The position numbers and the translations under genes are program-made. From Bdellovibrionales bacterium RBG_16_40_8 (lineage in GTDB: Bacteria; Bdellovibrionota; Bdellovibrionia; Bdellovibrionales; UBA1609): a stretch of DNA of 11,473 nucleotides. Shown one piece after another: positions 8,343-11,473 of the stretch. Under the pieces are notes generated by a model, which saw only the letters and a list, made by a program, of their open reading frames with translations, ran no database searches and was not told the DNA's origin. Each line of letters starts with the position of its first letter. The stretch's first letter is position 1. Location of the stretch: assembly GCA_001769925.1 (NCBI GenBank), contig MEPT01000027.1, positions 6,118-17,590 on the forward strand, read 5' to 3'.

Positions 8343-8350
8343 ACCTCATT

Positions 8351-8377
8351 GCTATATGTTTCATTTTAATACGTCAA
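8351..8377 (-). promoter_or_regulatory. weak sigma-70-like promoter candidate of the HAD gene
   Basis: On the - strand, TTGACG (8377-8372), 15 nt, TATAGC (8356-8351). The -35 is good and the -10 fair; the spacer is short. Transcription would start about at 8344, almost on GTG 8342, which would favour a leaderless start or GTG 8324. Confidence 0.2.
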
Positions 8378-8405
8378 TAGCGCTACTTGGTCTTGAGTGT
8401 CATAT

Positions 8406-8430
8406 TTATCGACACAAAAACACAACTTTA
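8406..8430 (-). promoter_or_regulatory. weak candidate sigma-28-like promoter of the HAD gene
   Basis: Read on the - strand: TAAAGTTG (8430-8423 area), 9 nt, then GTCGATAA (8413-8406). Each box matches the consensus 7 of 8, but the spacer is two shorter than the usual 11, a serious objection. The -35 shares the palindrome with the + strand promoter. Confidence 0.25.
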
Positions 8431-8455
8431 AGTTTCACCGACTTATGTCCGATCG
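8428..8455 (+). promoter_or_regulatory. candidate sigma-28 (FliA)-type promoter of the motor operon
   Basis: TTAAGTTT (8428-8435), 12 nt, then TCCGATCG (8448-8455). The enterobacterial sigma-28 consensus is TAAAGTTT-N11-GCCGATAA, so the -35 matches 7 of 8 and the CCGAT core of the -10 is intact; spacing is one longer. The -10 ends 49 nt before ATG 8505. The same arrangement recurs at 10333-10360, which raises confidence. Confidence 0.55.
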
Positions 8456-8491
8456 GCATGTTTGAGTGCATAGGACTAAAGTAAGAAAGTA

Positions 8492-8497
8492 AGGGAG
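8492..8497 (+). promoter_or_regulatory. ribosome binding site of the TolQ/ExbB-like gene
   Basis: AGGGAG, 7 nt before ATG 8505. It fixes this ATG as the start over the ATG codons at residues 3 and 5. Confidence 0.8.
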
Positions 8498-8504
8498 CAA
8501 TTTT

Positions 8505-9224
8505 ATGGAAATGGTGATGAAATTCTTCATTGATTACAAAATAGTTGATTTTTGCATAATCTCTGTAGGTATATTTGCCTTCGGCCTAATATTCGATAGA
8601 GTTAAGGCGCTCTACTTTGATTTATCTTTACCTACCGAGCAGTTTATGAAGCAGGTAATGGGTATGGTATATCAAGATAAAATAGAAGATGCGGTAACCT
8701 TCTGTTCGGCAAACGAAAAAAAGCCATTGGCATATGTAATTAAAAAAATTCTAGAAAAATCTGATCGAGAAAACGAGTCTATAGACCAGGCGTTAGATAT
8801 AGCTGCTAGCGAGGTGGCGCCTAAATTAATTAAAAATCTTGGACATTTATCGATGGTCGCTAATGTGGTTACTTTAGTGGGTCTGCTAGGCACGGTGTGC
8901 GGATTAATAGTGGCATTTAAAGCCGTTAGCTTTGCCGATGTTTCGCAAAAGCAAACACTTTTAGCTGAAGGTATATCGATAGCAATGTCAGCTACAGCTT
9001 TGGCTTTAAGTGTTGCAATACCGACGATGTTTGCTTATTCTTTTTTGCAATCAAAGCAAAATCGCTTATTCGGAGAAATAGATTTATATTCGCAAAAAAT
9101 TATTGAGGTTTTAAAGTCGCGCGGTTATACGCAATTTTCAGCCGCTACAGTTTACCACAGTCCAATTAATTCGCATGAGTTAACTAATAAAACAAATACG
9201 CCACCGCCCGCAAAGATTGCGTAA
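8505..9224 (+). CDS. MotA/TolQ/ExbB-family proton channel protein (AglR-like)
   Basis: 239 aa integral inner-membrane protein; the channel subunit of a proton-driven motor. Three membrane helices: about 12-31, 117-140 and 157-180, with a cytoplasmic loop between the first two, as in TolQ/ExbB. Signature stretches are LVGLLGTVCGLIVAF (124-138) and GISIAMSATALALSVAIPT (156-174) with the conserved Thr of the third helix (Thr164). It is followed by two TolR/ExbD-like genes, the same one-plus-two composition as AglR-AglQ-AglS of Myxococcus gliding and unlike the usual ExbB-ExbD or TolQ-TolR pair. No TonB or TolA gene is seen. The family is secure; the gliding-type assignment comes from gene order and the form of the partners. 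Confidence 0.9.
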   Translation: MEMVMKFFIDYKIVDFCIISVGIFAFGLIFDRVKALYFDLSLPTEQFMKQVMGMVYQDKIEDAVTFCSANEKKPLAYVIKKILEKSDRENESIDQALDIAASEVAPKLIKNLGHLSMVANVVTLVGLLGTVCGLIVAFKAVSFADVSQKQTLLAEGISIAMSATALALSVAIPTMFAYSFLQSKQNRLFGEIDLYSQKIIEVLKSRGYTQFSAATVYHSPINSHELTNKTNTPPPAKIA

Positions 9225-9250
9225 TCAGACAAGTAGTAGAGGAGCTAGTT

Positions 9251-9739
9251 GTGAGAATACATAGAACACGATCAAATGATTCTACGTTCGAGCTTAATTT
9301 GGCTCCTTTTTTGGATATTATTATATCAGTAATTCCGCTATTACTATTAAGTGTTGCATTTATTCATGTTAAAATGATCGCAGCGCCAACTCCTCAAGTC
9401 GTAAGCGAAGATAATCTTAAGAAGCCGCCAGTGCCAGAGGCATCGATAGTCTTACGCATTTCGAAAGTAAATGGATTTGAGTTTGCCGTAACTGATGTTA
9501 AGGGTAAACTTATGACCACAAATATTGCGCTTTCAAACGGGATACTTAATTTTGATGCTTTGTTAACGACAGCTATAAAAATTAAAGAAACTTACCCGAA
9601 TATTTCTAGTGTTCAGCTTTCACCTAATGCCGATGTGTCTTTTGACGAGATAATAAAAGTTATGGATAGAGTTCGCCATAAAGACAAAGTTAGTGAGTTG
9701 CTGTTCCCAGATGTAACTTTTGCCACTATTGGGGGATGA
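9251..9739 (+). CDS. ExbD/TolR-family motor subunit, first copy (AglS/AglQ-like)
   Basis: 162 aa. Single N-terminal membrane helix (about 17-39) with the family's key acidic residue, Asp22 in LNLAPFLDII, which in TolR/ExbD/MotB-type proteins carries the proton. A periplasmic domain of about 120 residues follows (VLRISKVNGFEF..., PNADVSFDEIIKVMDRV matches the typical TolR end region). The start is GTG 9251: AGAGGAG (9238-9244) sits 6 nt upstream, a strong site. It lies 26 nt after the channel gene and overlaps the area upstream of the second ExbD-like gene, so all three are one transcription unit. It is clearly different in sequence from the second copy, which suggests non-interchangeable roles. 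Confidence 0.88.
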   Translation: MRIHRTRSNDSTFELNLAPFLDIIISVIPLLLLSVAFIHVKMIAAPTPQVVSEDNLKKPPVPEASIVLRISKVNGFEFAVTDVKGKLMTTNIALSNGILNFDALLTTAIKIKETYPNISSVQLSPNADVSFDEIIKVMDRVRHKDKVSELLFPDVTFATIGG

Positions 9740-9740
9740 T

Positions 9741-10256
9741 GTGGGCAGGCGAGGACTAAAAAAATATATTGAAAAAAGAGCGCCATCAGCTTTTAAAATA
9801 CAGATTACCTCAATGGTAGATATGTTTATTATTATTCTTGTATTTTTGCTAAAAAGTTTTTCTACTAGTCCGGTAAACATAGTGCCAAATGAGCATTTGC
9901 GTCTGCCGCAATCGACCGCCTCAGTAGATCCAGTAGATGTTTTAAAAATTATAGTTTCAAAGTCTTCGGTATTTGTTGAAGACTCTAAAGTAGCTGATAT
10001 CGCAAATAATGAATTTGATAAAAGCCAATTAGACGTAGCAGATAAAGAATTCATAAGACCATTATACGAAGAGCTTGATAAAAAAGCGCAAAAGGCCAAA
10101 GACATTTCGAAAGTTAATGACACAGTAGAGTTCGAGGGCAAAGTGCTTATGCAAGTTGACAGAGAGATGCCTTATTCTTTATTAAGAAAGGTAATGTATA
10201 CGTCAATGCTTGCCGGCTACTATGACGTAAAATTTGCAGTCGTAAGTAAAGATTAA
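9741..10256 (+). CDS. ExbD/TolR-family motor subunit, second copy (AglQ/AglS-like)
   Basis: 171 aa from GTG 9741. Basic N-tail, one membrane helix (about 25-40) with Asp27 in ITSMVDMFIIILVFLLKSF, the form typical of AglQ/AglS-type gliding motor proteins; NEHLRLPQSTA after the helix is also characteristic. The periplasmic domain has an acidic helical insert (about 90-125) and ends in LMQVDREMPYSLLRKVMYTSMLAGY, the usual TolR/ExbD end region. Upstream frame positions TTG 9720 and TTG 9729 also exist, but GTG 9741 has GGGGGA (9731-9736) before it and begins 1 nt after the preceding TGA, and gives the normal short basic N-terminus. The last gene of the motor unit; a 145-nt gap follows. Confidence 0.87.
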   Translation: MGRRGLKKYIEKRAPSAFKIQITSMVDMFIIILVFLLKSFSTSPVNIVPNEHLRLPQSTASVDPVDVLKIIVSKSSVFVEDSKVADIANNEFDKSQLDVADKEFIRPLYEELDKKAQKAKDISKVNDTVEFEGKVLMQVDREMPYSLLRKVMYTSMLAGYYDVKFAVVSKD

Positions 10257-10326
10257 TGTTAGATTTATTGATTAAATTTTTTACAGTATCAAGTCCCATT
10301 TAGAGAATAATACAATTTTGATAACA

Positions 10327-10340
10327 TAAGTCTTAAGTCT
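10327..10340 (+). repeat. perfect tandem repeat TAAGTCT x2
   Basis: Two adjacent copies, 10327-10333 and 10334-10340. The second copy forms most of the putative -35 box. It may be a doubled binding site or a chance duplication. Confidence 0.5.
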
Positions 10341-10360
10341 AGATATTTTTTAGCCGATTG
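10333..10360 (+). promoter_or_regulatory. candidate sigma-28 (FliA)-type promoter of the GYF-PilZ gene
   Basis: TTAAGTCT (10333-10340), 12 nt, GCCGATTG (10353-10360). The -35 matches 6 of 8 and the -10 6 of 8 (intact GCCGAT) of the sigma-28 consensus. It has the same 12-nt spacer as the promoter at 8428, and a similar distance to the gene (41 nt to ATG 10402). Confidence 0.55.
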
Positions 10361-10389
10361 TATTAACAAGATGAATTGATTTTTTATAT

Positions 10390-10393
10390 GGAG
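10390..10393 (+). promoter_or_regulatory. ribosome binding site that fixes ATG 10402
   Basis: GGAG, 8 nt before ATG 10402. The earlier in-frame GTG at 10396 lies only 2 nt from it and is rejected as start. Confidence 0.75.
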
Positions 10394-10401
10394 AAGTGTG
10401 T

Positions 10402-11241
10402 ATGCAACTCAAGTACTACGTTTCACATGAAACCAAGCAAATGGGCCCGTATACAATAGATGAAATAGTAAGCTTCGTAAGTCAGGGTACGCTCTCACCA
10501 CTTGATTATATTTATGATGAAAAAAAATCTGATTGGATAATTTTTCTTGATTATGAAGAGTTGTCTGAAAAGGTTAAATCATTAAAGCCAAAAGCGCCCC
10601 CGCGCTTTGAAGAGCCAAATGTTCAAGAGCAAATAGTGAAAAAACCCTCGTATCAAGATAATGTGCCGTCTGTCGCAAAGGGCCCAGCGCAGCAGGAGTG
10701 GTTTGTTTTAAAGGGTGATAATAAATTTGGGCCATTTACGTACACAGATGTTGTAAAAATGCTGCAACAGGGTGTTGTCTTCGAATTTGATTTTGCTTGG
10801 CATGCAGGTATTGACGGCTGGCGGCGATTAGCAGAAATAGAAGAGTTCGACAAAGATCATATGAAAAAACTCAAAGACACAGCTTCGCTTGGTATTAGTG
10901 AAGTTTTTTTTCGTCGCCGGTATAAACGTGTAAAATACGGCGGAACCATATTGATTCATGATAATAAAAAAGTATGGAAAGGTAAGGGCGTTGAAATTAG
11001 TGAAGGCGGGGCAGGAGTTGTCATGGAAAACTCGATGGTGTTACCCGGTCAAGAGCTTTATTTACATTTTAAGCCTGGTGACGGCGTGCCGCCATTTAAT
11101 GCCATATGTGAGGTGGTAAGTAAGCAATTTGTTAACAAGGTCGAAGGCCCAAATGCATCAATGAAATATGGTTTAAAATTTAAAACGGTCAGTACAGAAA
11201 CACAGAAATTAATTAAAGATTATATGAAAAAAGCTGCATAG
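10402..11241 (+). CDS. tandem GYF_2 plus PilZ domain protein (c-di-GMP effector candidate)
   Basis: 279 aa, cytoplasmic; no signal peptide or membrane helix. Domains: GYF_2 no. 1 (about 3-52; LKYYVSHETKQMGPYTIDEI, W45), a Pro/Lys-rich linker (about 60-97), GYF_2 no. 2 (about 99-150; EWFVLKGDNKFGPFTYTDV, ending DGWRRLAEI), and a PilZ domain (about 170-278). The PilZ c-di-GMP motif RxxxR is present (Arg172-x3-Arg176). In the second motif (D/N)xSxxG the first residue is Glu: EISEGG (Glu198, Ser200, Gly203). Binding is therefore plausible but not assured. The GYF_2 domains usually bind Pro-rich peptides or partner proteins. Its neighbours are the proton motor upstream and an exported protein downstream, and it carries its own FliA-like promoter, so it is a candidate link between c-di-GMP and the motor. 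Confidence 0.85.
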   Translation: MQLKYYVSHETKQMGPYTIDEIVSFVSQGTLSPLDYIYDEKKSDWIIFLDYEELSEKVKSLKPKAPPRFEEPNVQEQIVKKPSYQDNVPSVAKGPAQQEWFVLKGDNKFGPFTYTDVVKMLQQGVVFEFDFAWHAGIDGWRRLAEIEEFDKDHMKKLKDTASLGISEVFFRRRYKRVKYGGTILIHDNKKVWKGKGVEISEGGAGVVMENSMVLPGQELYLHFKPGDGVPPFNAICEVVSKQFVNKVEGPNASMKYGLKFKTVSTETQKLIKDYMKKAA

Positions 11242-11321
11242 TATTTTGTTAGCAATTTTTAAAAAAAGCTCGCGTTTTGGCATGTACCCTCGTAGCGACA
11301 AATAAGTACTAAGGTATGTGC

Positions 11322-11473
11322 ATGAAGTTAAATAAATATTATAAATTGATTTTAATAAGTATATTTTCTATTGTGGCGCAGTCGCTATCATGGCCTACCT
11401 TTGCGAAAAGTCATAAAGATGCTGATCCTGAATTGTCTGGCTTGCAATACAAGGCTAATGATGAAAAAGGTAA
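11322..11473 (+). CDS. exported protein, N-terminus only (3' end outside window)
   Basis: Fifty codons are visible from ATG 11322, with AAGG (11311-11314) 7 nt upstream. An in-frame ATG at 11316 is only 1 nt from this site and is less likely. The N-terminus is a Sec signal peptide: basic start (Lys2, Lys5, Lys8), hydrophobic core (about 9-20, LILISIFSIVAQ), and a probable signal peptidase I site after Ala29 (WPTFA-KSHKD). The mature start is charged and hydrophilic. No family can be named from this much. It starts 80 nt after the GYF-PilZ gene on the same strand, with no clear terminator between, so it may be cotranscribed. Confidence 0.75.
   Translation, partial: MKLNKYYKLILISIFSIVAQSLSWPTFAKSHKDADPELSGLQYKANDEKG

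Follow-up and report, generated by a model that had tools for sequence, protein, structure and literature searches.

The window analyzed here is a stretch of 11,473 nucleotides (nt) from Bdellovibrionales bacterium RBG_16_40_8 (assembly GCA_001769925.1, contig MEPT01000027.1, positions 6,118 to 17,590; G000:C27:6118-17590). The source assembly comprises 2.47 Mb in 131 contigs and is 93.8% complete. The right half of the window holds a divergent HAD-type gene, a MotA/TolQ/ExbB-family gene, two ExbD-family genes, and a GYF_2/PilZ gene. Two copies of a promoter-like box, TTAAG and CCGAT with a 16-base spacer (N16), were found there, one before the operon of motor genes and one before the gene encoding GYF and PilZ domains. 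Both boxes are very probably promoters of the sigma factor FliA (sigma-28), under which a gliding motor and its PilZ partner would be expressed together while the cell hunts. The features are as follows.

8342-7623, minus strand: divergent HAD-type gene upstream of the motor operon.
8428..8453, plus strand: predicted FliA-type promoter 1, preceding the motor operon (-35 TTAAG at 8428-8432, N16, -10 CCGAT at 8449-8453; exact match).
8491..8496, plus strand: probable ribosome-binding site aaggga of the first motor gene, read from the sequence.
8505..9224, plus strand: AglR-like gene of the MotA/TolQ/ExbB family (Pfam PF01618, E 4e-25).
9251..9739, plus strand: first ExbD/TolR-like gene, AglQ-like by position (Pfam PF02472, E 1.4e-9).
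9720..10256, plus strand: second ExbD/TolR-like gene, AglS-like by position (Pfam PF02472, E 2e-10).
10333..10358, plus strand: predicted FliA-type promoter 2, preceding the GYF-PilZ gene (-35 TTAAG at 10333-10337, N16, -10 CCGAT at 10354-10358; exact match).
10390..10395, plus strand: probable ribosome-binding site ggagaa of the GYF-PilZ gene, read from the sequence.
10402..11241, plus strand: GYF-GYF-PilZ gene (Pfam GYF_2, two stretches, and PilZ).
11322..11473, plus strand: next gene, start only, which runs off the window; signal peptide-like N terminus by eye.

The two boxes are the only exact matches to TTAAG-N16-CCGAT in the window, both strands searched. In 200 dinucleotide shuffles, the mean count was 0.04 and no shuffle contained two. 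When one mismatch was allowed, the window still held two matches against a shuffle mean of 0.84, and at least two were seen in 35 of the 200 shuffles. Since the looser pattern is not rare, the argument rests on exactness and context. The first-pass annotation had described a fuller sequence at each site, and both sequences are present letter for letter. Across the 2.47 Mb of the genome, its pattern, TTAAGTNT-N11/12-NCCGATNG, matches these two sites only, and the reversed pattern, used as a control, matches nowhere. It had also placed the boxes 41 to 49 nt before a start codon, and the distances, counted from the end of the 8-mer, are indeed 49 nt for box 1 (to ATG 8505) and 41 nt for box 2 (to ATG 10402). 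The base after CCGAT is C in box 1 and T in box 2, where the published consensus has A. The boxes lie in the gaps 8343-8504 and 10257-10401. These two gaps, said to be the only sizeable ones on the plus strand of the right half, both exist, but a gap of 80 nt follows the PilZ gene (11242-11321); the first gap does lie before the motor and also parts it from the HAD-type gene. Sigma-70 promoters were not enriched in the region (13 found, 14.2 expected), and an Rfam search of the window gave no match. A simple terminator scan, which can miss terminators, found no plus-strand site between aglS and PilZ.

The box was found to recur before orthologues of the GYF-PilZ gene. Named relatives carrying this gene are metagenome-assembled genomes and strains titled Bdellovibrionales, Bdellovibrionaceae, Bdellovibrionota and the like, including B. 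bacteriovorus kdesi, and one carrier is titled only Proteobacteria. Genomes are numbered here with G000 as the window's own; G000 to G005 belong to its genus, and G001 and G002 are 78% and 76% complete. Boxes were scored as bases matched of the 10 in TTAAG and CCGAT, and a score of at least 9/10 normally counted as a box. A first set of 30 orthologue loci, own included, was scanned within 250 nt; one locus had no upstream sequence, and an N16 box was present in 26 of the other 29 upstream regions, with none at eight other spacers. The remainder of the 110,564 bases around these loci contained six N16 boxes on the same strand and nine on the opposite strand. A pooled set of 75 loci, less three with short upstream sequence, left 72 that collapsed to 51 non-redundant regions. 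Of these, 36 have an N16 box (22 exact), one has an N15 box, and other spacings gave none. A dyad count made without any pattern on the same 51 regions put AAGT-N15-CCGA at the top, in 34 regions, while the maxima in 20 shuffled sets were 7 to 10. T and C after TTAAG, which lie outside the search pattern, are frequent among the 36 boxed regions (83% and 67%), and of the 14 remaining spacer columns, 13 do not exceed 44%. Twelve of the 15 misses reach 8/10, eight of them as TAAAG-N16-CCGAA, a level for which there was no control. An exact box also precedes the PilZ-gene orthologue of B. bacteriovorus kdesi (L151).

At the motor, 38 relatives had a fetched motor region, searched within about 2.6 kb or less at contig ends. 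A box of at least 9/10 is present at the motor unit in 19 of them, an 8/10 variant in three, and none in 14; the loci of G020 and G049 are truncated. The box stands directly upstream of the motor in five relatives (G003, G004, G005, G014, G047) and ahead of a unit that begins with PilZ in 14 (G008, G009, G010, G012, G016, G022, G025, G027, G030, G036, G039, G041, G044, G051), lying 25 nt before an upstream in-frame ATG in G044. The three 8/10 variants also precede a PilZ-first unit (G011, G023, G024). The first-pass proposal that the boxes be conserved in orthologous gaps is thus borne out at both places, in 36 of 51 PilZ regions and, at 9/10 or better, in 19 of 38 motor units. PilZ, aglR, aglQ, aglS, and a large open reading frame (ORF) form the usual layout in relatives, some of which have one more ORF separating PilZ from aglR. 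In the window's genus (G000, G003, G004, G005), the motor comes first and PilZ lies behind aglS, with a box on each; the motor box of G003, G004, and G005 is at the same place as in the window. G001 and G002 gave no close match to these genes. In G014, the PilZ and motor units are on different contigs, each with a 9/10 box. That separated units each carry a box argues for selected co-regulation. The PilZ and motor units of G047 (L177) are divergent, and each has an exact box.

A single gene of the source genome passes the FliA cut-off (245.9 bits against 189.6), as at least one does in 53 of the 59 genomes searched, own included. Genome-wide, TTAAG-N(12-20)-CCGAT matched 49 times (N12 1, N13 9, N14 2, N15 4, N16 17, N17 8, N18 1, N19 2, N20 5). 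N16 was the commonest of the nine spacings, with 17 of the 49 (P about 1e-5 against equal shares). Only four of the 17 N16 matches lie inside ORFs of at least 150 amino acids, compared to 16 of 22 matches with other spacers (Fisher p 0.004), a comparison that covered 22 of those 32. Among the genes directly after N16 matches are FliL, with an exact box, and one for a ribosome hibernation-type protein (S30AE). By eye, several of the others appear to encode secreted proteins, and Pfam gave no informative match for most. The box before the S30AE gene is exact (G000:C120:23068-23093), and an S-adenosylmethionine synthetase gene comes next; this placement would be fitting for a non-growing hunting phase. 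TAAAG was tried as an alternative -35 element in the source genome and rejected, as its 63 matches (N15 6, N16 8) showed no peak.

The motif has been described before in this order. For B. bacteriovorus, TTAAG-N16-CCGATA was reported in 92 of 140 mapped attack-phase promoters and attributed to FliA (PMC3627812). FliA could not be deleted in that species, and in E. coli the Bdellovibrio protein turns on promoters of TAD and flagellin genes (PMC5430801). The N12 spacing that the first-pass annotation thought might be lineage-specific is the N16 between TTAAG and CCGAT, that is, the published Bdellovibrio form (PMC3627812), and its status as a lineage novelty was rejected. The central proposal of that annotation, a FliA-type regulon joining the motor operon and the GYF-PilZ gene, is supported by the FliA gene, the N16 peak, the boxes of orthologues, and the match to the attack-phase consensus (PMC3627812).

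Flagellins gave a more mixed result. The best locus per genome was taken in relatives, giving 29 loci, 28 of them with upstream sequence, and these were scanned within 400 nt for TTAAG or TAAAG with CCGAT at 9/10 or better. N15 boxes were found in 18 of the 28, N16 boxes in five, and neither in eight; three of the five N16 loci are the same site as an N15 box counted one base apart. In the window's genus, G003 and G005 have their flagellin boxes at N16 only. Since both forms occur among flagellins, they coexist and the split is not absolute. One sigma factor could well read both, a view helped by the E. coli activation data (PMC5430801).

The motor itself looks like the AglRQS gliding motor rather than a flagellar stator, judging from sequence. 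One MotA/TolQ/ExbB gene is followed by two ExbD/TolR genes in a row, which is the AglRQS gene pattern, and a flagellar motor (stator) was rejected on this gene content. The AglR-like protein scores 70.9 bits with the TolQ model, far below the cut-off of 221. The start of the second ExbD/TolR-like gene is uncertain, TTG 9720 or GTG 9741. At the position of the incomplete gene at the window's end, the ORF is 1017 amino acids long in G003 and 1030 in G005, and that of G003 contains TPR (Pfam). Large ORFs of about 970 to 1270 amino acids adjoin the unit in most relatives, and both of those scanned contain TPR. One large ORF beside the unit scores above the YbgF cut-off; the large ORFs are at most candidates for Glt-type genes.

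For the GYF-PilZ gene, ATG 10402 is the better start than the listed GTG 10396 because it follows ggagaa (10390-10395) and is the place at which several orthologues start with M-Q. The GYF domain matches PDB chain 7z3c_A, Adventurous gliding motility protein X (E 0.0024), and the GltJ/AgmX NCBIfam model at E 5e-6, but with 25.8 bits against a cut-off of 450. This likeness suggests that the protein may dock on the gliding machine. PilZ domains that bind cyclic di-GMP typically have the motifs RxxxR and (D/N)xSxxG. The first is present, with R174 and R178 invariant in 14 aligned sequences.

Taken together, these observations favor a mechanism in which FliA-bearing RNA polymerase would use each 26-base element as a promoter at the time when FliA is active, the motile phase of hunting (attack phase). 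Box 1 would drive the aglRQS-like operon, and box 2 the GYF-PilZ gene and probably also the TPR gene that follows, so that motor and PilZ would be transcribed along with other hunting genes. The ancestral state was probably one box heading a single PilZ-aglR-aglQ-aglS-TPR unit. In the window's genus, PilZ would then have moved behind aglS with a box of its own, and both units would have stayed in one regulon. Through the PilZ protein, a cyclic-dinucleotide signal would be relayed to the gliding machine.

Several results weigh against this account. No motor box was found within the searched distance in 14 of the 38 relatives (G007, G015, G019, G026, G029, G037, G042, G045, G050, G054, G057, and the Bdellovibrio-like G048, G053, and G056). 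Because the Bdellovibrio-like motors have no nearby box, FliA control of the motor would belong to part of the order. Within the window's own genus, the motor box of G003 and G005 reads TCAAG, and the PilZ box of G003 to G005 reads TTTAG. The reversed pattern, over all spacers, matched the source genome 63 times against 49, so the total is not raised and only the N16 share is unusual; N13 (9) and N17 (8) are also numerous, and the four exact N16 matches inside genes belong here as well. The first-pass annotation had suggested looking for the motif before flagellar genes of the same genome. The outcome of that check was mixed: FliL has an exact N16 box, and of eight flagellin-type regions, five best fit N15, two N16, and one neither. 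Some of the N15 fits reach just 8/10, at 93 to 267 nt; the N16 fits are 8/10 at 87 nt and 9/10 at 274 nt. The second PilZ motif is ExSxxG, with E200 invariant in the 14 orthologue sequences, and signal binding is uncertain because E stands in place of D/N. Finally, no FliA above the cut-off was found in G012, although this genome is listed as 100% complete and carries both flagellins and an exact PilZ box; an assembly gap is a possible reason. The other five genomes without FliA above the cut-off are at most 86% complete. Lineages that lost FliA were considered as a test of box loss and found unusable, given that 53 of 59 genomes keep FliA and five of the other six are so incomplete.

The most serious alternative is that only one box matters, either because PilZ is transcribed mostly by read-through from the motor operon or because one box is weak or accessory. 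C or T after CCGAT, in place of the consensus A, could point this way, as could the lack of a terminator site between aglS and PilZ in a scan that can, as noted, overlook them. Both boxes score 9 or 10 of 10 in all four genus genomes holding these genes, and we consider this alternative unlikely, with perhaps one chance in a few of being right. Another possible explanation is that the boxes serve some other alternative sigma factor, whose motif overlaps that of FliA, giving co-regulation without FliA. Three further genes of the source genome match the FliA model below the cut-off, the N15 boxes of flagellins in 18 of 28 loci of the order could mean two factors, and G012 has a PilZ box without FliA above the cut-off. 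Against this, a single gene passes the cut-off in the source genome, the attack-phase motif that was published and ascribed to FliA has the N16 spacing (PMC3627812), and in E. coli, Bdellovibrio FliA switches on a TAD promoter as well as a flagellin one (PMC5430801). In addition, the window's genus has N16 boxes before flagellins (G003, G005) and before FliL (source genome). Use of the boxes by such a factor is improbable. Chance resemblance is hardly credible at all: the looser one-mismatch count is compatible with it, but two exact matches occurred in none of the shuffles, and recurrence before PilZ genes across the order at one spacing contradicts it. FliA control of both units is the reading we prefer.

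FliA was also found where no flagellum was detected. The flagellar gene product FlhA was searched for in 15 genomes, 12 small or flagellin-less ones and three flagellate controls. Eleven gave no match, and 10 of these have FliA above the cut-off; the eleventh, G013, has a partial FliA match. The ten are G006, G007, G017, G018, G019, G021, G026, G032, G033, and G034, of the window genome's family, and several of the assemblies are incomplete. Flagellin was not found in G007, G019, G021, and G026, which were among 38 genomes searched for it. Nine of the ten FliA sequences were aligned with flagellate FliA, and what we take to be the C-terminal DNA-binding region is well conserved. When six FlhA-less genomes were pooled, N16 accounted for 16 of 42 matches to TTAAG-N(12-20)-CCGATA (P 5e-6). 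Singly, only G026 (6/12) and G018 (4/5) stand out; the shares in the others are 3/12 in G019, 2/7 in G021, 1/3 in G006, and 0/3 in G007. The N16 share in flagellates by the same search is 10/19 in G048, 8/27 in G053, 5/11 in G005, and 5/24 in G009. Fifteen N16 boxes of FlhA-less genomes were viewed; four are inside ORFs, and PilB-type ATPases and a PilZ protein are among the genes behind the others. PilB-type ATPases (T2SSE and MshEN) lie 8 and 35 nt behind exact N16 boxes at L242 (G026) and L247 (G018). No box was found at the motor operons of the FlhA-less G007, G019, and G026.

In flagellum-less lineages, FliA may run pilus, PilZ, and surface-protein genes. A broader proposal is that FliA in this order would be a regulator of hunting and surface life independent of the flagellum, kept with N16 boxes after flagellum loss, with the PilZ-gliding-motor unit as a conserved non-flagellar target and the flagellins of most relatives set apart by N15. 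We hold the chances of this proposal to be even; the N16 flagellins of G003 and G005 weigh against the setting apart. Relatives that have FliA and no detected FlhA offer a natural test of the role of FliA without a flagellum. The literature searched, mostly without subscription papers, gave no report of FliA in a non-flagellated Bdellovibrio relative and none of a FliA promoter for a gliding motor. The present analysis would widen the attack-phase FliA regulon, published for one species, to a promoter recurring, in much of the order, before a probable gliding motor and PilZ gene. It would also connect FliA, cyclic-dinucleotide control of gliding, and the AglRQS-type motor, which have so far been studied separately.

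Compared to the attack-phase FliA promoters described for B. bacteriovorus (PMC3627812), the window shares TTAAG, the 16-base spacer, CCGAT, an encoded FliA, and non-flagellar targets. It differs in having C or T, not A, after CCGAT and comes from another genus and family group of the same order. Both elements of the bacterial sigma-28 promoter, given in the first-pass annotation as TAAAGTTT-N11-GCCGATAA, are common to the window's boxes; the spacer from AAG to CCGAT is one base longer in the window, whereas flagellin boxes of most relatives examined keep the short form (18/28). The B. bacteriovorus gliding operon resembles the window in placing a PilZ gene beside aglRQS-type genes (PMC3271064, PMC9140294). 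There, the PilZ gene Bd1482 lies at the 5' end and was proposed as a candidate receptor for the DgcA gliding signal (PMC3271064), and the aglQ gene bd1480 is raised on surfaces (PMC9140294). The PilZ gene in the operon of the Bdellovibrio-like G048 and G053 is a weaker homologue at which no box was found, and the closest homologue of the window's PilZ gene sits elsewhere, with a box; from gene order, these operons would correspond to Bd1480-1482. Lastly, the AglRQS/Glt machine of Myxococcus xanthus (PMC3169522) has, like the window, one TolQ-type and two TolR-type genes in a row, and the GYF domain of the window's protein is similar to that of its GltJ/AgmX. In contrast to that system as described there, the window encodes GYF and PilZ on one protein beside the motor and has a FliA-type promoter, as predicted here, for the motor itself.

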